In this document: in pieces, positions 26,659-39,673 of the stretch | Position numbering within the stretch: position 1 is the stretch's first letter | How the letters are laid out: each line of letters starts with the position of its first letter | Assembly (NCBI GenBank): GCA_028247015.1 | Contig: JAOKFJ010000001.1 | Location: 1-64,000, forward strand | Length of the DNA stretch: 64,000 bases | Direction: 5' to 3' | DNA from: Methylophilaceae bacterium | GTDB lineage: Bacteria > Pseudomonadota > Gammaproteobacteria > Burkholderiales > Methylophilaceae | Position numbers and translations under genes: made by a program | The notes under the pieces: generated by a model | What the model was told of the DNA's origin: nothing | Database searches by the model: none | What the model saw: only the letters and a program-made list of their open reading frames with translations

Positions 26659-27996
26659 ATGAAGTTAAGTTATAGTGTAAAACTTTCCCAATCACTCAAG
26701 CTTACCCCGCTACTTCAGCAATCATTAAGATTTCTACAGGCATCACAAGCTGAACTAGATGAATTACTCGAAGAATACTTGAATGATAATATTTTTCTTG
26801 AGCGAGAAGAAAATGACAATTATATAAAGCAACCAACCGGAAGTAATCAGTCAAAAAATAATTCAATAAGTTCAGATGATGAATACTATAATATTTTCGA
26901 AAATCAAGCGAAAAATAAAACCTTAAGAGAATACTTAATTGAAAGTTTAGGTATTTTTTCTTTTTCTGAGCGACAACAAATTATTCTTTCTTTTTTAATA
27001 GATGCAATCAATGATGAAGGCTATTTAACAGAAACTTTTGAATCATTAATAGATTCTATACCTCAAGAGCCAATGGTTGAATGCAAGGAATTAGAAGCCT
27101 TGATAAAACTGATTGAAAATTCGTCATTCCCCGGCATTGGGGCAAGAGATTTATCAGAGTGCCTACACTCACAATTAAGTATTATTGGAAATGAAAATAA
27201 AATTATTCAAATTTCAAAATCTATCGTGATAAATCATTTAAATTTACTAGCTAATAAAAACTATGAAGATCTAACAAAAAAATTAAACTGCTCTCGAGAT
27301 AATTTAGGCAAAGCAATTAAAGTTATTACAGCACTTAATCCTAAACCAGGGCTCGCTTTCAAAAAAAATAATACAAATGATTACATAAGGCCAGACGTTA
27401 ATATAATTAAAGATAACGGAATCTGGAAAGTTCATCTAAATGAAGATGAAGTATTCAAATTAAAGTTAAATAATGAACATAAAGGGTACTTTAACGATAT
27501 TCCAGAAGATCAAATAGGAGATTTGAAGGAGAAACTTCAAGAAGCTAAATGGCTAATAAAAAATCTGCAACAACGTGCAATAACTATTATAAGAGTTTCT
27601 CGAGCGATTATGGGCCGTCAAATAGAATTTCTAGAAAAAGGTGAGCTGCATTTGAGGCCCCTCATATTGAAGGAAATATCAGAAGAATTAGATCTTCATG
27701 AATCCACAATCTCCAGAGTAACGTCTAATAAATTTATTCTAACTCCTCACGGAATTTATGAACTTAAGCATTTTTTTGGGTCAAAAATCTACTCAGGACT
27801 AGGAAAAACATTATCCTCAAAGGCAATTTCAGGCAGAATAAAGGATATCACTGATAAAGAAGACTCACTTAAGCCCTATTCTGATGAAAAAATAGTTTTG
27901 TTGCTTAAGGAACAAGGGATTAAAATAGCAAGAAGAACAGTAGCTAAATATAGAGACAAATTACAAATTTTGCCGTCTAACCAAAGAAAAAAATAA
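26659..27996 (+). CDS. rpoN: RNA polymerase sigma-54 factor
   Basis: 445 residues. Region I with the glutamine/leucine-rich 'LTPLLQQSLRFLQASQAEL', an acidic region II, the core-binding domain, the HTH around 'LDLHESTISRVTSNKFILTPHGI', and the C-terminal RpoN box 'ARRTVAKYRDKLQI'. It directs transcription from -24/-12 promoters and requires an AAA+ activator. The only response regulator of that lineage in the window (NtrX, 33.6 kb) has lost its ATPase motifs, so any activator must be elsewhere. Followed by hpf as in most Proteobacteria. Confidence 0.97.
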   Translation: MKLSYSVKLSQSLKLTPLLQQSLRFLQASQAELDELLEEYLNDNIFLEREENDNYIKQPTGSNQSKNNSISSDDEYYNIFENQAKNKTLREYLIESLGIFSFSERQQIILSFLIDAINDEGYLTETFESLIDSIPQEPMVECKELEALIKLIENSSFPGIGARDLSECLHSQLSIIGNENKIIQISKSIVINHLNLLANKNYEDLTKKLNCSRDNLGKAIKVITALNPKPGLAFKKNNTNDYIRPDVNIIKDNGIWKVHLNEDEVFKLKLNNEHKGYFNDIPEDQIGDLKEKLQEAKWLIKNLQQRAITIIRVSRAIMGRQIEFLEKGELHLRPLILKEISEELDLHESTISRVTSNKFILTPHGIYELKHFFGSKIYSGLGKTLSSKAISGRIKDITDKEDSLKPYSDEKIVLLLKEQGIKIARRTVAKYRDKLQILPSNQRKK

Positions 27997-28010: not shown

Positions 28011-28334
28011 ATGAATATAATAATTAAAGCTCATAATTTTGAAATTACCTCCTCTATTGATCAGCATGTTAGAAATAAATTTAAAAAAATTACTAACCAC
28101 TTTGATCATTTAATAGATGCAAAATTTACTCTAAGCTTAGAGAGATTAAATCATATAGCCCAAGTAACAATTCATCTGCCAAAAGCTGATATGCATGCTG
28201 AATCTTCAGATGAGGATATGTATCATGCAATCGAAACAGTGATACAGAAATTAGATCGACAAGTAATTAAATATAAAGAAAAAAATTCTAATCATCATCA
28301 ATCAGATGGTTCAATTAAAAATAAAACGGAATGA
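28011..28334 (+). CDS. hpf: Ribosome hibernation promoting factor, short form
   Basis: 107 residues of the HPF/YfiA family: 'NIIIKAHNFEITSSIDQHV' at the N terminus and 'ADMHAESSDEDMYHAIETVIQKLDRQVIKYK' region covering the conserved helix. Binds the 30S decoding site and promotes inactive 100S ribosomes in slow growth. Short form, with no C-terminal dimerisation domain; the His/Ser-rich tail is brief. Fifteen bases after rpoN. Confidence 0.94.
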   Translation: MNIIIKAHNFEITSSIDQHVRNKFKKITNHFDHLIDAKFTLSLERLNHIAQVTIHLPKADMHAESSDEDMYHAIETVIQKLDRQVIKYKEKNSNHHQSDGSIKNKTE

Positions 28335-28347
28335 ATGATACCTAATA

Positions 28348-28737
28348 ATGATTGGCATACTCTTAGTTACGCATGGTGAAATAGGAAAATCTTTCATAGA
28401 CTGTGCATCACATATACTTGGTAAATCTATCAATTTACTTGAGTGCATCCCAGTAGACCCTAAAAGTAATCTAGAAGAATGTCAGGAATTCATCAATATT
28501 GAAATAAAAAATCTGGATACAGGAACTGGAGTTTTAATCCTAACGGATATTTATGGGGCGACTCCTTCAAATATTTTAAAAAAATTTACTACTCAAGATA
28601 ATGTTGAAGTAATTACAGGGATTAATTTACCAATGCTAATACAAGCAATTACAAATAGAGATGGCAAGCTCTCTCAGGTTACAAGCAAATGCATGCAATC
28701 AGCTGAAGATAGCATTATAAGAATGGATAGTAAATGA
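28348..28737 (+). CDS. PTS mannose-family EIIA-like protein
   Basis: 129-residue EIIA of the mannose type. The phosphoacceptor His lies at residue 9 in 'ILLVTHGEIGKSFIDCA', and 'LILTDIYGATPSNIL' and 'VITGINLPMLIQAI' are family blocks. No EIIB, EIIC or EIID is adjacent, so it is probably part of a regulatory, non-transporting phosphorelay with the next two genes. In related Betaproteobacteria ptsN, hprK and rapZ lie between hpf and this gene; here the gap is 13 bases. Overlaps ptsH by 4 bases (ATGA). Confidence 0.92.
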   Translation: MIGILLVTHGEIGKSFIDCASHILGKSINLLECIPVDPKSNLEECQEFINIEIKNLDTGTGVLILTDIYGATPSNILKKFTTQDNVEVITGINLPMLIQAITNRDGKLSQVTSKCMQSAEDSIIRMDSK

Positions 28738-29003
28738 TAAAGAAAAAAATAAAAATTATTAATAAATTAGGTTTACATGCTAGGGCTTCAAGTAAACTTA
28801 CACAGCTTGCATCGCAATTTAATTCCAAAATATTTATAATAAAAAATAATAAAAAAGTTAATGCAAAAAATATTATGGATATTTTAATGCTCGCTGCGAG
28901 CGTAGATTCAGAAGTTGAAATTGAGGCCAATGGCTCCGATGAGATCGAGGCGATTAAACAAATTGAGAAGCTTTTCCAAAATTATTTTGAGGAGGGTGAA
29001 TAA
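28734..29003 (+). CDS. ptsH: Phosphocarrier protein HPr with Asn at position 46
   Basis: 89 residues. The EI-phosphorylated histidine is His15 in 'NKLGLHARASSKL'. The second regulatory site, normally Ser46 in a 'KSIMGVMML' segment phosphorylated by HPr kinase, reads 'KNIMDILMLAAS': counting from Met1, residue 46 is Asn. Together with the missing hprK this suggests that the serine-kinase branch of the PTS has been lost. Start overlaps the EIIA stop, and the stop overlaps the ptsI start by one base (TAATG). Confidence 0.95.
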   Translation: MIKKKIKIINKLGLHARASSKLTQLASQFNSKIFIIKNNKKVNAKNIMDILMLAASVDSEVEIEANGSDEIEAIKQIEKLFQNYFEEGE

Positions 29004-30727
29004 TGGTATCGTTTAATATTCACGGTGTTCCAGTGTCAAATGGAATTGCTATTGGTACATCTCATTTAGTTTCCAATGCCTTACTAGAAGTTGTACGTTA
29101 TGATATCAAGAATACAAAAATTGATTTTGAAGTTAAAAGATTTAAGAAGGCATTATCTGTAGTAAAAAATGAATTAATCAAAATTAAAAAACAACTTGTA
29201 ATTAATTCTAACTCCCAATTTGCTCCATTTATTGATACTCATTTGATGTTGTTGAGTGATAACAATATATCAAGCGAACCAATTGATAGCATTATAAATG
29301 AGAAATGTAATGCAGAATGGGCAATTAAAATTCAACTAGACCTTATTATTGATAAATTTAATCAGATTGAAGATCCTTACATCAGGGAAAGGAAACATGA
29401 TGTAGTTCAGGTTGCCGAAAGAGTCATCAAGGTGCTTTTGGGTCATCAAAAGCAGAAGATAAAGTTTAAAAATGAAAGTTCAGTTATTTTAGTTGCCCAA
29501 GATATTTCTCCAGCAGATACGCTCCAATTTAAGAAACATAAATATGGAGCATTTATTACAGAAATGGGTGGGGCTAATTCACATACAGCAATTCTTGCAA
29601 GAAGTTTAAATATTCCATCAATCGTTGCCTTACGAAATGCAAAGAAATTAATCAAGAATAATGACACCTTAATTGTTGATGGTAATCAGGGTATTGTTAT
29701 TATTAATCCTAGCACTGCTATTCTTGATGAATATCAATACAAACAGAACCTTTGGGAAATAGAACAAAAAAAACTAATAAAAATTAGAAATGTTAGATGT
29801 AAGACCTTAGGAAATGAAACAATAAAGCTTCTTGCAAATATTGAGGTTCCAGAAGATATTAAATCTGTTAAAGAAAATAATGGTGACGGTATTGGTTTAT
29901 TTCGAACTGAATTTCTATTTATGAATAGAACAACGCTACCTGACGAAGAAGAGCAGTTTAATATTTATAAGTCTGTTGCCAAATCTATGGGAAATCTACC
30001 AGTAGTTATAAGAACTCTAGATTCAGGAGCTGATAAAAATATTTCTGCGGATAACAATAACAAGAATACCTCTGCACTAGGGTTGCGTGCAATTAGACTC
30101 TGTTTATCTGAACCACATCTTTTTACTACTCAATTAAAGGCAATTCTTAGAGCATCAGAGTTTGGTAACATAAGAATTCTTATACCTATGCTTTCTTCAC
30201 TCCAAGAACTAAGACAAACAAAAATGCTGATTGAAAGAGCAAAACAATCTCTTAAAAATTCTAAAATAAAATTTGATAATAAGATTTTAGTAGGTGGTAT
30301 GATTGAAGTTCCAGCGGTTGCCATTAATGCAGATATGTTCGCAAATGAATTGGATTTCTTATCAATTGGAACAAATGATTTAGTCCAATATACACTTGCT
30401 ATTGATCGGACTGATGATAGTGTTTCTCATTTGTATAATTCACTTCACTCTGCAGTTCTTAGGCTAATCGACAACACAATTAAGGCTGGAAAGAAATATG
30501 ACAAAGAAGTCTCAATATGTGGTGAAATGGCTGGTGATCCGAAATTAACAAAATTACTACTTGGAATGGGATTAACAAATTTTTCAATGCATCCTACAAG
30601 CATGCTTACTGTTAAAAAACAAGTTTTATGTTCGGATCCAAAAAAGATAAAAATAAAAGCAAAAAAAATATTAAGGTCTATTGAGCCCGATAATATTGAA
30701 AGCCTAATTCAAGACATTAACAAATAA
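29003..30727 (+). CDS. ptsI: PTS enzyme I (phosphoenolpyruvate-protein phosphotransferase)
   Basis: Transfers phosphate from PEP to HPr. 574 residues, family length. N-terminal HPr-binding/helical domain, the phosphohistidine motif 'EMGGANSHTAILARSLNIP', and the C-terminal PEP-binding barrel with 'GIGLFRTEFLFMNR' and 'LDFLSIGTNDLVQYTLAIDR' and catalytic cysteine in 'VSICGEMAGDP'. All key residues appear intact, so the EI-HPr-EIIA relay should work despite the absence of sugar permease subunits here. Confidence 0.97.
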   Translation: MVSFNIHGVPVSNGIAIGTSHLVSNALLEVVRYDIKNTKIDFEVKRFKKALSVVKNELIKIKKQLVINSNSQFAPFIDTHLMLLSDNNISSEPIDSIINEKCNAEWAIKIQLDLIIDKFNQIEDPYIRERKHDVVQVAERVIKVLLGHQKQKIKFKNESSVILVAQDISPADTLQFKKHKYGAFITEMGGANSHTAILARSLNIPSIVALRNAKKLIKNNDTLIVDGNQGIVIINPSTAILDEYQYKQNLWEIEQKKLIKIRNVRCKTLGNETIKLLANIEVPEDIKSVKENNGDGIGLFRTEFLFMNRTTLPDEEEQFNIYKSVAKSMGNLPVVIRTLDSGADKNISADNNNKNTSALGLRAIRLCLSEPHLFTTQLKAILRASEFGNIRILIPMLSSLQELRQTKMLIERAKQSLKNSKIKFDNKILVGGMIEVPAVAINADMFANELDFLSIGTNDLVQYTLAIDRTDDSVSHLYNSLHSAVLRLIDNTIKAGKKYDKEVSICGEMAGDPKLTKLLLGMGLTNFSMHPTSMLTVKKQVLCSDPKKIKIKAKKILRSIEPDNIESLIQDINK

Positions 30728-33556: not shown

Positions 33557-34795
33557 TTATTTAATTTTAATATTTAATTGCTTTAATTTTCTGTATAAAT
33601 GAGTCCTCTCAACTCCAGATTTTTTTGATAACTCAGTAACTGATATTTTAGAATTAATGTGAAATTCAAAATATTTTCTTTCAAATTCTTCTCGAGCATC
33701 TTTAAGGACTAAGCTATATAAATTATTATTTTCTATCTTGATATCAGCGATAAAGTTATTCGGACTAGCAACTGAAGTTTCTGAAAAATTAAGATCATCA
33801 GCCGTTATAGTCTCTGTATCAGTATTCTGTATGAGATTTACAATAAATTGGTCCAAAATATCAATTTGAAGAAAATCAGATTTAAGTCTCATTGTATTTA
33901 AAGCAGAAGTATCAAATTCCTTATACCCAATATTAATATTTTTTGATAAATAATAATTTAATATTAAATTTGAAAATTCAGAGATCATATCTATATCATT
34001 ATCAATTGGCATTTTAATGAAATGATTATCAAATAACCATTCATTAGCTACTAGTTTTTTTAGTGTATTTATATCTTCATCTATAATAATGACTTTAATT
34101 TTTTTATTAATTAATAGATTAATTACTTCTCTTAATTCAGTTAAATCATAATTTGATAGGTCACTAAATTTTTTAATTAATAAGGCCGTTTTTCCTTTTT
34201 CCTGGATTTTATTAATCAGAAGTGAATCTAGTTTATTTTTTGAATCGTACACAGAGAAATTATTTCCTAGTAAAAATTCAATGCAAACATTCAAAAAATT
34301 ACCTTCTTTTCCCTCAATAAGAATTAAGTTTTCTTTCTTTAGGTCTTTAAGTCTTTGTCTTAATATTTTGATAACAGGGCTTTCAACATCATTAATAAAA
34401 CTAATATCTAGTTTAGTTATATGAATAGATTTTTTAAGTGCCAATGATATTGTTTTTAGTAATTTTTGGAGTGAAATTGGTTTTTCAAGAAAATCAAAAG
34501 CTCCAATTTTTGTTGCTTCTATTGCAGTATCAATAGTTCCATGTCCTGACATCATAATTACTGGGCAGTTAATTTCCTTATCTTTAGCCCATTGTTTTAA
34601 GAGTGATATCCCATCACAATCTGGCATCCATATATCTAGAAGAATTAGATCGAAACGAATTTTACTTTTAATTTCTCTTGCTTTTACGGCATTTTCAGCT
34701 ACAACTACTTCAAACCCTTCATCCTTAATAATGTCAGACAGTGATTCTCTTATATCTTCTTCATCATCAATAATTAATATTTTAGCTTTTGTCAT
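33557..34795 (-). CDS. ntrX: NtrX-like response regulator with degenerate AAA+ domain
   Basis: 412 residues. Receiver domain (1-120) with acidic pair 'LIIDDEEDIRESL', phosphoacceptor Asp54 in 'ILLDIWMPDCDG' and 'VIMMSGHGT'. The central region (about 130-330) aligns in position with the sigma-54 activator ATPase but lacks Walker A ('LILIEGKEGNFLNV' stands where GESGTGKE would be), GAFTGA and Walker B. The C-terminal Fis-type HTH 'TELSKKSGVERTHLYRKLKQL' is intact. It probably binds DNA under control of NtrY without acting as a sigma-54 activator. Follows ntrY with 1-base spacing. Confidence 0.88.
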   Translation of the reverse strand: MTKAKILIIDDEEDIRESLSDIIKDEGFEVVVAENAVKAREIKSKIRFDLILLDIWMPDCDGISLLKQWAKDKEINCPVIMMSGHGTIDTAIEATKIGAFDFLEKPISLQKLLKTISLALKKSIHITKLDISFINDVESPVIKILRQRLKDLKKENLILIEGKEGNFLNVCIEFLLGNNFSVYDSKNKLDSLLINKIQEKGKTALLIKKFSDLSNYDLTELREVINLLINKKIKVIIIDEDINTLKKLVANEWLFDNHFIKMPIDNDIDMISEFSNLILNYYLSKNINIGYKEFDTSALNTMRLKSDFLQIDILDQFIVNLIQNTDTETITADDLNFSETSVASPNNFIADIKIENNNLYSLVLKDAREEFERKYFEFHINSKISVTELSKKSGVERTHLYRKLKQLNIKIK

Positions 34796-34796
34796 G

Positions 34797-36908
34797 TTAT
34801 TTCTTAGGTAACTTTACAGATACACTTGTTCCTTTATTTTTATTTCTTCTTATATCAATTTTTCCGGAATGTTCTTCTATGATCTTATTTACGATTGCAA
34901 GTCCAAGGCCTGTTCCAGTCGCCTTTGATGTAACGTATGGTTCAAATATTCTACTCATAAGTTCTTTAGAGATCCCCATTCCATTATCCTCAATTGTAAA
35001 TGAAACCCAATTAATATCTTCAACTATATCAATAATTATTTCAGGATTCTTTTCTTTTGCTAATCCATCTTTTGCATTCTCAACTAAATTTATTATAACT
35101 TGTCGTATTTTGTTTTCATCAGCTTTTATTAATATTATTTTATTCGTTACATTGAGTGTAATTTTAATTGTAGTGGACTGATACAATTCGATAATATTCT
35201 CAAGGAGAACTACTAAATTAAATGCTTTAATATTTTTGGCTGTAGGCCTAGAATATTCTGAGAATTCATTTACCATTGTCTTAAGAGCCTGTACTTGATT
35301 TACAATAGTTAAAGTTGATTTCTTTAGCATTATCAAGTCTTCATCACTTAGCTTATCCTTTAATTTATGCTCAATCCTCTCAGCAGATAATTGAATTGGG
35401 GTAAGAGGATTCTTTATTTCATGGGCCAATCTTCTAGCTATTTCTGACCATGCTTGACTTCTCTGACCTTTTGTTAATTCTGATATATCGTCTATAACTA
35501 ATATGTATGAAATATTTTTTTCTCTTTTCAGTGGTGTTATTTGAATTCGAATTATTTCTTCATTATCTTTATTTTTAGTATTAAACTCAAAGCTCTCCTC
35601 TTTTAGAAATGGCTTTGAAAATATTATTGTATTTAGCTTTTTAATAATAGGCTGGTAAATTTTATTTTTTGATATTTCATGAGTAAATCTCACTCCTGTC
35701 ATGTTTATTTTTTTAAATTTAATTATTTTAGATGCTGTAATATTATGAAGCCTAACTACGTTGTTACTATCCAACACAATTACTCCAGATGATAAATGAG
35801 TTAAAATTGTGTCTAGGAAAGCCCTAGCTATTTCTAATCGTTCTCTGCTTTTTTCTGAACTGTTTGTTGCATCATTTAGCTTTACTGTCATGCTGTTAAA
35901 CGATTTAACAAGTAGCCCTAGTTCATCCTTACTATTTTCTGGAATTGTTTTATTATATTTCCCTTTCGCTATTTGTCTCGTCGCTTCAGCTAATAATGAT
36001 ATCGGTTCTGAGATTCTTCGACTAATAACAAACGAGGCTGCAACTGCAGATAGAATTGCAAGAAGTAATACTAGCGTTAAAGTCATTGTATATATTATTT
36101 TCAATGAGCTTCTACTGTATGCAAGCGTTTGATAGTCTTCGTATACTGATTCAACAGATAATGCTATATCAGATATTGATTCAGGTATTGGCTGGGTTAT
36201 CTGGATTATTTTTTCTGGCTTTAATAATTCTTTACGAGGAATTGGCACATATGCTTTCATGAAGATCTTCCCATCTATTTCCTCAATTTTTCCAAAGAAA
36301 CCCTCTGAGGCACGTATTAAATCTTCTTGTTTTGGAAGGACTGGTAAACGAGTTTCATATTCTCCTGAAACACTATATATTTTAGAATTTGTACCAATGA
36401 TAACTGCCTCTTGAATTGAGAATTTTTCTCTCAAATCATTTAATATTTCTGAACTTGATGATTCATCAGTTGCACCAATTGAATATGCCATGCTCTTAGA
36501 TTTTAATTCAATATCTTTTAATAGAATATCTAGCGTTTTCTGGCCAAGGCTTAATCCACCTTGAAGTGCTGATTCTACTTGAACATTAAACCATGACTCA
36601 ATTGACTTTGTTAAAAAACTTACTGATGCTAAATAAACTATTGTTACTGGAATAATAACAACAGTTGCAAATGATAAAACAAGCCTCATCGTTAATCTAC
36701 TTCCTACAATTTCTTTTTTAACATTTTGGAGTAACTTTATTATCTGAATTGTAATGAGAACAACTAATGAACAAACAAAAATGATATTAAAAATTAGTAG
36801 CAGCCTAAATGTATCACTCGATACTAATTCAGAATTTGATAGAGATTTTGCTAATAAAATTAATAACGCTATTCCAATAAAAGCAACAGTGGTAATTATA
36901 TATCTCAA
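34797..36908 (-). CDS. ntrY: NtrY-like membrane sensor histidine kinase
   Basis: 703 residues. N-terminal transmembrane segments, an extracytoplasmic sensor region (about 110-275), a further helix, HAMP ('RISEPISLLAEATRQIAKGKY'), a PAS-like segment ('SGVIVLDSNNVVRLHNITA'), HisKA with phospho-His in 'ARRLAHEIKNPLTPIQLSAE', and HATPase with 'NLVENAKDGL', 'DNGMGIS' and 'TGLGLAIVNKI'. The kinase looks functional. TTG start overlapping the stop of the DUF4390 gene (TTGA). Related NtrY proteins respond to redox or nitrogen; the signal here is not known. Confidence 0.94.
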   Translation of the reverse strand: MRYIITTVAFIGIALLILLAKSLSNSELVSSDTFRLLLIFNIIFVCSLVVLITIQIIKLLQNVKKEIVGSRLTMRLVLSFATVVIIPVTIVYLASVSFLTKSIESWFNVQVESALQGGLSLGQKTLDILLKDIELKSKSMAYSIGATDESSSSEILNDLREKFSIQEAVIIGTNSKIYSVSGEYETRLPVLPKQEDLIRASEGFFGKIEEIDGKIFMKAYVPIPRKELLKPEKIIQITQPIPESISDIALSVESVYEDYQTLAYSRSSLKIIYTMTLTLVLLLAILSAVAASFVISRRISEPISLLAEATRQIAKGKYNKTIPENSKDELGLLVKSFNSMTVKLNDATNSSEKSRERLEIARAFLDTILTHLSSGVIVLDSNNVVRLHNITASKIIKFKKINMTGVRFTHEISKNKIYQPIIKKLNTIIFSKPFLKEESFEFNTKNKDNEEIIRIQITPLKREKNISYILVIDDISELTKGQRSQAWSEIARRLAHEIKNPLTPIQLSAERIEHKLKDKLSDEDLIMLKKSTLTIVNQVQALKTMVNEFSEYSRPTAKNIKAFNLVVLLENIIELYQSTTIKITLNVTNKIILIKADENKIRQVIINLVENAKDGLAKEKNPEIIIDIVEDINWVSFTIEDNGMGISKELMSRIFEPYVTSKATGTGLGLAIVNKIIEEHSGKIDIRRNKNKGTSVSVKLPKK

Positions 36909-37480
36909 TTTAATTCACCTATCTCATATTTTATTAACTCAGACTCTACGTTCCATGATTTATCATTAAAGTTAATTTGTAGCGCTTTTGGTAAATACTT
37001 TTTATCTAATTTAGTTTTTAACTCCAACGTACCTTCCTTTAAATCAATACTAGGACCGATATCCCATTTCTCTATATATGATAATTTTTTAATAGCATCA
37101 TCAATGTTACTAAAATAACTCTTTTGGTCATTCATGTCACTCACCATGTATTTTTGCAATAAACTTTTATACTTTAATTCAAAGTGATATTCCTTTAATA
37201 ATATAAGACGATTAAACCCATATTTATTCTTTTGTGAAATTTTTGCAGTTACTAAGAAGTGAAATGGAATTCCTTTACTTAATGCATCCCTAGCTTCTGA
37301 AAGCAGTGATATAGATTGGTAATAACTTAGAAAGTAATGTCCCTGTTTATAATCTAAACTAATATCCTTAGTTTCAATTATTTGCTCCATTGAGTAAGCA
37401 TAAATTGAGAATAAAACTATATATATTAAAGCTAATTTATTACTAATTTTTTTCAAGTAATGCATAAAATAATCCATCAT
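36905..37480 (-). CDS. DUF4390 domain-containing protein
   Basis: 191 residues from the first ATG; an internal Met at 37465 ('MHYLKKISNKLALIYIV') is an equally good start and leaves a tidy signal peptide or anchor (hydrophobic 12-25). The rest is a beta-rich domain with 'FHFLVTAKISQKNKYGFNRL' and an even spacing of charged residues. DUF4390 genes sit between rsmB and ntrY in many Betaproteobacteria, as here. No biochemical role is established; a periplasmic accessory to NtrY is a guess from position. Confidence 0.82.
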   Translation of the reverse strand: MMDYFMHYLKKISNKLALIYIVLFSIYAYSMEQIIETKDISLDYKQGHYFLSYYQSISLLSEARDALSKGIPFHFLVTAKISQKNKYGFNRLILLKEYHFELKYKSLLQKYMVSDMNDQKSYFSNIDDAIKKLSYIEKWDIGPSIDLKEGTLELKTKLDKKYLPKALQINFNDKSWNVESELIKYEIGELN

Positions 37481-38723
37481 GATTTTCTGAAGGTATAAGT
37501 TGATTCTTGATATGCTTAATATTATTTGGATATATTAATTCAATTTCATTTGCATCTATAAAATCCTTTTTAAATCTTTCCATAACATCTCTATTTTCAT
37601 TACTGAATATTGAACATGTAACATACAATAATTTTCCACCGCACTTTAATAAAGGCCATGCTGACTTCAATAATAGATATTGCATTTCAGAAAATTTTTT
37701 TAGGTCATTCATTTGTCTAAGCCATTTTATATCTACATGTCTTCTGACAATTCCTGATGCGGAACAAGGAACATCTAATAATATTCGATCAAAATGTTCC
37801 CCATCCCACCATAAATTATCATTACATAATTCTCCATGAATTACATTTGCATTCAGCTCTAATCGCCTTAAATTATCAACTATTTTTTTTACTCTTATTT
37901 CATCAATTTCTAGAGCTGTTACATCTACATTTGCATACTCAACAATATTGCATGTTTTTCCTCCTGGTGCGGCACAAGCATCTAATATTTTTTGGTCCCT
38001 CTTAATATCTAATAATTCTGTTGCAATCTGTGCGCCAAAGTCTTGGACTGAAATATTTCCCTCTAAAAATCCTGGAATATCATTTATATTTAGCGGATTC
38101 TTAATAATAAGCCCTGTATTTGAAATTATTTGATGCTCTAACCCATTATTTATTAGAGTCTCACTATATTTTTCAATATTAATTTTTCTTTTGTTTATTC
38201 TAAGAGTAAGTGGTGGGTGTTGATTTCCAATTTCTAGGATTTCTTCCCAATCATTCTTAAATTCAATCTTAACTTTATTTATCCACCAATTCTGATAGCT
38301 AAATTTAGCAACTTGTTCTTGGTTTAATAGTGCGTGTAAATCATCTTTACTTCTTAAATAATTTCTTAATATTGCATTTACAAATTTACTTTTTCTAAAA
38401 TCAATTTTTTTTGCTGCGTCAACCGCCTGATTCACAATTGTAAAATTATTAAATTTTTCTTGGGATAGTTGATAAAGAGCAATATGAATTAAGCATTCTA
38501 CTGTCCTATTTTCTATTTTATTTTTTACTAATTGATCTATTATAAATCTGGATTTACCAAGGAATCTAACTGAGCCATAGGTTAATGCTTTAATTTGTGA
38601 CTCTTGAATATCTATGCTTTTACTTTTACTGCTATTAAAGACTGCGTCAAAACTTTTATCTAAATTAGATCCATTAAGTAGCTTTTCTAAAACTTTTGCT
38701 GACATAAGTTGTGAGTTTTGCAT
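37443..38723 (-). CDS. rsmB: 16S rRNA (cytosine-967-C5)-methyltransferase
   Basis: 426 residues. N-terminal NusB-like RNA-binding domain (about 1-140), then the Fmu catalytic domain with 'DACAAPGGKTCNIVE', motif IV 'LLDVPCSASGIVRRHVDIKW' and motif VI 'LLYVTCSIFSNENR'. The ORF track starts at a TTG (38726), but ATG at 38723 overlapping the fmt stop (TGATG) is the better start. Position after def-fmt is the conserved one, which identifies this copy rather than the 3.9-5.1 kb paralogue as RsmB. Confidence 0.94.
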   Translation of the reverse strand: MQNSQLMSAKVLEKLLNGSNLDKSFDAVFNSSKSKSIDIQESQIKALTYGSVRFLGKSRFIIDQLVKNKIENRTVECLIHIALYQLSQEKFNNFTIVNQAVDAAKKIDFRKSKFVNAILRNYLRSKDDLHALLNQEQVAKFSYQNWWINKVKIEFKNDWEEILEIGNQHPPLTLRINKRKINIEKYSETLINNGLEHQIISNTGLIIKNPLNINDIPGFLEGNISVQDFGAQIATELLDIKRDQKILDACAAPGGKTCNIVEYANVDVTALEIDEIRVKKIVDNLRRLELNANVIHGELCNDNLWWDGEHFDRILLDVPCSASGIVRRHVDIKWLRQMNDLKKFSEMQYLLLKSAWPLLKCGGKLLYVTCSIFSNENRDVMERFKKDFIDANEIELIYPNNIKHIKNQLIPSENHDGLFYALLEKN

Positions 38724-39673
38724 CAAGTAATTTTCTCAATTTTAGTTATTTCATGACCTCTGATAAACGAACTTGCATCCATCCTTGTTTTACCTTCTGG
38801 TTGTAGTTCTATTATTTTAATTACTCCATTTTCTAATTTTAGAATTAACTCTTCATTGTATGTATATAGCTCACCAATACTCATTTGTATACTTTTATCT
38901 TTATTTTTAATTACGTCTGCCTTCCATATTTTAAGAATTTTATCTCTAAAAATAATTGCTGCTCCCGGGTAGGGATTTAATGAATTAATTTTTCGTACAA
39001 TTACTTCAGGCGCATGACACATATTTAATCGTGCTTCTGATTTATTAATTTTCTCAGCATATGTAACTAGTGATTCTCTTTGCTCAACTATAGATATAGT
39101 TTCTTTTTTTTGAATAGATGAAACTATTTGCTTCATTAATATTGCCCCAATATTTGCTAAGTTCTTTGTAACTTCACCAGTCGTAATATTTTTATCTAAA
39201 TCTATACTTTTACTAATTAACATAGGCCCTGCATCTAATTTTTCCACAACCTTCATAATAGTAACTCCTGTAGCCTTATCTCCAGCCTCAATTGCACGAT
39301 GAATTGGGGCCGCTCCTCTCCATCTAGGAAGTAATGATGCATGAACGTTATAGCAACCCATCGGAAATAAAGCTAAAATATTGCTAGGTATAATTAATCC
39401 ATAAGCAGCTACAATTAAAATATCTGCATTAGAGGCCTCTAAGATTTCAAATGCATCATTATCTTTGAGTGAAATAGGTTGAAGTATAGGAATATTTAGC
39501 CTTAGTGCTGTTTTTTTTACCGGGCTGTATGAATTTTTCATTCCTCTACCTGATTTTTTATCAGGCTGAGTTAGCACATGAATTACTTTAGAATAATCAG
39601 TATTTAATGCAATTAAAGTAGGAACTGAAAATTCAGGGGTACCTGCGAATATAATCTTTAGATAATTATCCAT
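38723..39673 (-). CDS. fmt: Methionyl-tRNA formyltransferase
   Basis: Formylates initiator Met-tRNA using 10-formyl-THF. 316 residues. N-terminal 'KIIFAGTPEFSVPTLIAL', the catalytic 'NVHASLLPRWRGAAPIHRAI' region, 'GVTIMKVVEKLDAGPML', and the C-terminal OB-like domain ('INSLNPYPGAAI'). Nine bases after def and overlapping rsmB: standard def-fmt-rsmB operon. Confidence 0.97.
   Translation of the reverse strand: MDNYLKIIFAGTPEFSVPTLIALNTDYSKVIHVLTQPDKKSGRGMKNSYSPVKKTALRLNIPILQPISLKDNDAFEILEASNADILIVAAYGLIIPSNILALFPMGCYNVHASLLPRWRGAAPIHRAIEAGDKATGVTIMKVVEKLDAGPMLISKSIDLDKNITTGEVTKNLANIGAILMKQIVSSIQKKETISIVEQRESLVTYAEKINKSEARLNMCHAPEVIVRKINSLNPYPGAAIIFRDKILKIWKADVIKNKDKSIQMSIGELYTYNEELILKLENGVIKIIELQPEGKTRMDASSFIRGHEITKIEKIT

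Follow-up and report, generated by a model that had tools for sequence, protein, structure and literature searches.

The window, a 64,000-nucleotide stretch of a Methylophilaceae contig (JAOKFJ010000001.1, positions 1 to 64,000), carries the gene order fmt-rsmB-plrP(DUF4390)-ntrY-ntrX, which matches the PlrPSR arrangement described in Bordetella (Table 1). Beta and gamma NtrYX systems share rsmB and a DUF4390 gene upstream (Wolber et al. 2026, PMC13001219), rsmB being the usual upstream neighbour of beta ntrYX (PMC13001219). In Bordetella, PlrP is the periplasmic third component of the PlrPSR system, and genetic evidence in the same study indicates that it restrains the phosphatase activity of PlrS (PMC13001219); the DUF4390 protein PlrP is likely to be the third component of the window's NtrYX as well. 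The HisKA and HATPase domains of NtrY are present, as expected from the original prediction of an intact kinase. Elsewhere in the window, rpoN is followed at 28011-30727 by hpf, an EIIA-type PTS protein, HPr and PTS enzyme I; no sugar permease lies among the ORFs neighbouring this PTS chain, which is presumably regulatory.

Table 1. Positions of the ntrYX locus, the NtrX domains and motif relics, and rpoN within the window
Feature	Position	Strand	Evidence
rpoN (sigma-54), intact	26659..27996	+	PF04552 E 2.4e-60, ORF
ntrX (plrR-type) response regulator, 412 aa	33557..34795	-	ORF, Pfam receiver, orthologues, adjoins ntrY
NtrX Fis-type HTH, residues 361-412, ERTHLYRKLKQL	33560..33715	-	alignment
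NtrX degenerate AAA+ domain, residues 125-345	33761..34423	-	AF2 pLDDT 90, Foldseek, hhalign
NtrX NEWLFDNHFIKMP, residues 251-263, over arginine-finger segment FREDLFHRLNV	34007..34045	-	alignment
NtrX Walker B relic, TALLIKKFSDL, residues 203-213	34157..34189	-	alignment
NtrX Walker A relic, IEGKEGNFLNVCIEFLL, residues 160-176	34268..34318	-	alignment
NtrX receiver, residues 1-121	34433..34795	-	Pfam; phosphorylation-site residues invariant
NtrX Asp54 codon	34634-34636	-	
ntrY (plrS-type) sensor kinase; NtrY_N, HAMP, HisKA, HATPase_c	34797..36908	-	Pfam
plrP homologue, DUF4390	36905..37480	-	PF14334 E 1e-26
rsmB, 16S rRNA methyltransferase	37443..38726	-	PF01189 E 9e-50

The ntrX reading frame opens with ATG and encodes 412 residues with no internal stop. 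Its receiver matches Pfam Response_reg (E 6.5e-30), and all 192 aligned NtrX sequences share D10, D11, D54, S83 and K105 without exception. At the other end of the protein, the E396-K405 run of the HTH is invariant across 39 Methylophilaceae, and the recognition helix is identical between beta NtrX with and without the central domain. On the NCBIfam NtrX equivalog model NF051870 the protein scores 141 bits, below the cut-off of 600. Of 120 genomes just 30 pass this cut-off, and the window's class contributes none, so the threshold seems to fit alpha-type proteins. Orthology is therefore assigned from the ntrY, rsmB and DUF4390 neighbours together with the receiver and HTH, and not from NF051870. 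The window gene represents the OM43 clade among orthologues of betaproteobacterial NtrX/PlrR; its product, the output partner of NtrY/PlrS, is an ordinary DNA-binding response regulator of that family.

Where the locus is complete, nearly every clade member has an intact ntrX frame. Four members of the genus (G004, G007, G009 and G030) have no ntrYX, which is put down to incomplete assembly: none of the four genomes is complete, and G004, G007 and G030 also lack rpoN, a gene found about 10 kb or less from ntrYX in relatives. Separately, ntrY is split into several frames in L139 3057-6404 (G029) and L140 813-3029 (G033), and ntrX is also split in the former; these breaks are probably assembly errors.

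The central domain of NtrX

Walker A, GAFTGA, Walker B, GNVRQL and arginine-finger/sensor-II motifs are all absent from the window NtrX, and the sigma-54 domain PF14532 leaves only a sub-threshold trace (16.7 bits; cut-off 25). The corresponding segments can be located by alignment with the NtrC encoded in the same genome. Specifically, IEGKEGNFLNVCIEFLL (residues 160-176) aligns over LNGESGSGKELVAKAIH, with Leu168 at the position of the catalytic Walker A lysine, while TALLIKKFSDL aligns over the Walker B segment GTLFLDEIGDM, with Lys-Lys in place of Asp-Glu. Additionally, LVANEWLFDN aligns over RFREDLFHRLNV of NtrC, and an IIIDE string at residues 237-241 falls outside the Walker B position. 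The Pfam matches and this alignment bear out the original description of an intact receiver and HTH without ATPase motifs between them; its placement of NEWLFDNHFIKMP at the family's arginine-finger segment agrees with the NtrC alignment, which also puts the P-loop relic and the other motif segments much where they had been drawn.

The fold of the domain is predicted to have survived. An AlphaFold2 model of the whole protein, built with 39 Methylophilaceae sequences, has a mean pLDDT of 85; over its full length it best matches the Brucella NtrX structure 5m7o (E 7.7e-18), with a global TM-score of only about 0.3 because the domains are differently arranged. Modelled alone, the central domain reaches pLDDT 90 and pTM 0.85, and Foldseek matches it to the AAA+ domains of NtrC1, VpsR, FlrC, PspF and NtrX at TM-scores of about 0.5-0.6, led by NtrC1, VpsR (entry 7v2b) and FlrC. 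Profile comparison by hhalign connects the marine-clade domain to beta NtrX (E 8e-11) and gamma NtrX (1e-7). Directly against NtrC the marine profile yields nothing (probability 0.5%), so the link to NtrC runs only through intermediate NtrX profiles; profiles of the freshwater and other Methylophilaceae match NtrC at 2e-24 and beta profiles at 7e-32. The NtrY C-terminal region, used as a negative control, gives no profile match above 5% probability. The profile chain and structure rule out an unrelated replacement domain, in line with the earlier proposal that this is an AAA+ fold in decay rather than another protein altogether. Collectively, the models indicate that the central domain still adopts an AAA+ fold, without nucleotide-site motifs or the sigma-54 loop.

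Per-domain dN/dS was estimated by Nei-Gojobori between the window ntrX and its two nearest orthologues, giving 0.04 for the receiver, 0.13 and 0.20 for the central domain and 0.14-0.17 for the HTH. Across other close pairs the central-domain ratio is nearly always below 0.3; among the pairs listed the exceptions are the distant pair L011/L014 (near 1) and L015/L016 (0.49). The central domain is thus kept under purifying selection, with weaker constraint than the receiver, and this selection could reflect a role beyond that of a spacer.

Distribution of motif and domain loss

The alignment comprises 192 NtrX sequences and an NtrC reference: 30 alpha-type (same phylum, other class, passing the NtrX model), 38 gamma-type (adjoining DUF4390), 26 other beta and 98 distinct Methylophilaceae sequences. 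Not one of the 183 sequences with a central domain, alpha- and gamma-type included, contains GAFTGA. Walker A and B are kept in all 30 alpha-type sequences, and the Walker A lysine in 31 of the 38 gamma-type ones; the seven without it belong to several separate lineages (L143, L145, L148, L152, L157, L175, L177). Among the other betas, the domain is retained in 17 of 26, never with the lysine (0/17), and is absent from nine. All 98 Methylophilaceae sequences have the domain and lack the P-loop, five marine rows having a lysine in the Walker A column without the glycines. Loss of the lysine requires at least five changes, and so also took place several times within the gamma group.

In non-marine Methylophilaceae traces of the motifs remain: GEKGSGTELCAKFIH is one example, the second position of Walker B is acidic in 75/75, and W.G[N/D] is present in 74/75. 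None of these relics is found in the window's marine group. By this comparison, the marine OM43-type clade has the most decayed central domain. The NtrY tree places the betas, Methylophilaceae among them, in a single clade apart from the gamma rows. A tree on NtrY, receiver and HTH requires two losses to account for the domain-less NtrX, and a single clade of these is rejected (p-AU 0.002); the central domain has been excised at least twice among beta NtrX.

The original prediction had read the missing motifs as something this NtrX "has lost". As a recent, local event this does not stand: motif loss is common to the whole orthologous group and not gene-specific. Because no NtrX in the alignment has GAFTGA and no domain-bearing beta NtrX has the Walker A lysine, the loss belongs to the biology of the family, and the working parts for sigma-54 disappeared long ago in the group's ancestors, not in this organism.

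Sigma-54 context

Another GAFTGA protein, which the earlier reader had suggested looking for, is encoded in the window genome (62% complete): an NtrC with GESGSGK, GAFTGA and LFLDE, adjoining NtrB. Weak second PF00158 matches were taken as other AAA+ proteins, their open frames being mostly 750-860 aa. In two related OM43-type genomes, HTCC2181 (G015) and UBA4017 (G025), rpoN is cleanly absent, lptB directly neighbouring hpf within a single contig, and ntrYX is retained; NtrX is thus maintained without sigma-54 in these two genomes. The lptB-hpf junctions lie at L227 9522-9566 (HTCC2181) and L228 13039-13087 (UBA4017), where other clade members keep rpoN. GAFTGA is also gone from the NtrC of HTCC2181 and G025 (LFGIEGNVNAHNDE, LFGMETHASTDTQ), and these proteins are possibly, by analogy, sigma-70-type NtrC as in Rhodobacter. 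Both (L221 in G015, L220 in G025) keep Walker A, and the HTCC2181 protein has also lost the Walker B aspartate (LFLSEI).

Sigma-54 activation by the window NtrX is most unlikely, as had been proposed, and relatives without rpoN keep ntrX. Since the window genome has both rpoN and NtrC, an indirect contact with sigma-54 transcription is conceivable. In a rival reading NtrX would still serve sigma-54 transcription, for example by joining NtrC hexamers or as an anti-activator at NtrC enhancers, and the presence of rpoN and a GAFTGA-bearing NtrC would suit it. However, HTCC2181 and UBA4017 keep ntrYX without rpoN, and ring assembly would lack the arginine finger and P-loop that NtrX no longer has, which leaves continued sigma-54 service highly improbable.

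Mode of action and related regulators

The reading we prefer, with a probability of roughly 0.8, is that NtrX acts at ordinary promoters as a dimeric DNA-binding regulator under phosphorylation control and carries a passive, dead AAA+ domain. NtrY would phosphorylate Asp54, favouring an NtrX dimer that would bind palindromic operators through its Fis-type HTH and activate or repress promoters of the sigma-70-type polymerase with no need for ATP hydrolysis. The central domain would play a passive part, as a spacer or as a scaffold for the dimer, and would matter little enough that other lineages could excise it. The putative action at sigma-70-type promoters is plausible. The alpha NtrX of Sinorhizobium recognises CAAN2-5TTG, for which phosphorylation of Asp53 is required (PMC9223101), and in R. 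sphaeroides NtrX occupies sites upstream of the operon that encodes it and of dcw/cell-envelope operons (PMC7240162); a motif search found no published NtrX site upstream of the window ntrX, ntrY or plrP.

Other readings give the central domain or the gene a different fate. The domain could have turned into a ligand sensor, like those of the cyclic di-GMP-binding VpsR and FleQ; VpsR ranks among its best structural matches and purifying selection still acts on it. Excision of the domain is tolerated in the wider family, however, and a search of 13 genomes from the window's genus, near-complete (99%) ones included, turned up no GGDEF protein; two larger Methylophilaceae that served as positive controls gave 40 and 22. 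Cyclic di-GMP is therefore an unlikely ligand; another ligand is possible, and a sensor role as a whole is unlikely, if the least so of these alternatives. Decay of ntrX into a pseudogene bound for loss in a streamlined genome would fit the absence of every central motif from the marine clade, including the W.GN kept by freshwater relatives, and the central identity of 33% against 71% in the receiver. It is nevertheless highly improbable, given the intact frames noted above, the unchanged receiver residues and recognition helix, and dN/dS far below 1 in every domain. As for a frameshift or misassembly that garbled the central part of an otherwise normal NtrX, the unusual sequence alone speaks for it; it is ruled out by full-length orthologues with 86% and 78% identity in two independent assemblies and by the lack of the motifs in all 98 Methylophilaceae sequences.

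Several published regulators resemble the window NtrX. The paper on the Brucella abortus NtrX structure reportedly describes an NtrX without GAFTGA. That protein (PDB 5m7n/5m7o/5m7p) shares the domain order of the window NtrX and was solved with ATP and ADP, whereas the window NtrX lacks nucleotide-site motifs. Bordetella PlrR resembles it in its neighbourhood (rsmB-plrP-plrS-plrR) and in joining a receiver and a DNA-binding domain with no working AAA+ domain (PMC13001219); the window protein differs in the folded AAA+ remnant of about 220 residues between the two. Herbaspirillum seropedicae NtrX, likened to the window protein by description only, is reported to be without an AAA+ domain and to act on the nitrate genes narK and narX (Bonato et al. 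2016, via PMC13001219 and PMC7240162). VpsR of Vibrio cholerae and the GAFTGA-less NtrC of Rhodobacter and Caulobacter share the NtrC-type architecture and have reported sigma-70 promoters (PMC10274813), but belong to other orthologous groups. The authors of that study predict that Caulobacter NtrC uses ATP, and note that Caulobacter NtrX lacks GAFTGA (PMC10274813).

It is thus already published that beta NtrX are without the AAA+ domain and some alpha NtrX without GAFTGA; what is new here is the survival of a folded domain without motifs in many betas, and its removal more than once. The statement that beta NtrX lack the domain (PMC13001219, citing Bonato et al. 2016) does not apply to every beta, because 17 of the 26 other betas and all Methylophilaceae keep it in degenerate form. 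A broader scenario is offered tentatively and seems to us doubtful as a whole: the motor may have been dismantled in order, from GAFTGA to the P-loop lysine, the other motifs and, at least twice, the entire domain, with the selected Methylophilaceae remnant taking on a new structural or sensing role unlike the excised forms, and with NtrC of the HTCC2181 lineage starting along the same path.

For the family, these results refine the published view that beta NtrX lack AAA+, many of them retaining a folded but motif-less domain, and they provide a series of intermediates from a working AAA+ activator to a plain two-domain response regulator. Automatic annotation of such methylotroph genes as sigma-54-dependent nitrogen regulators needs correcting.
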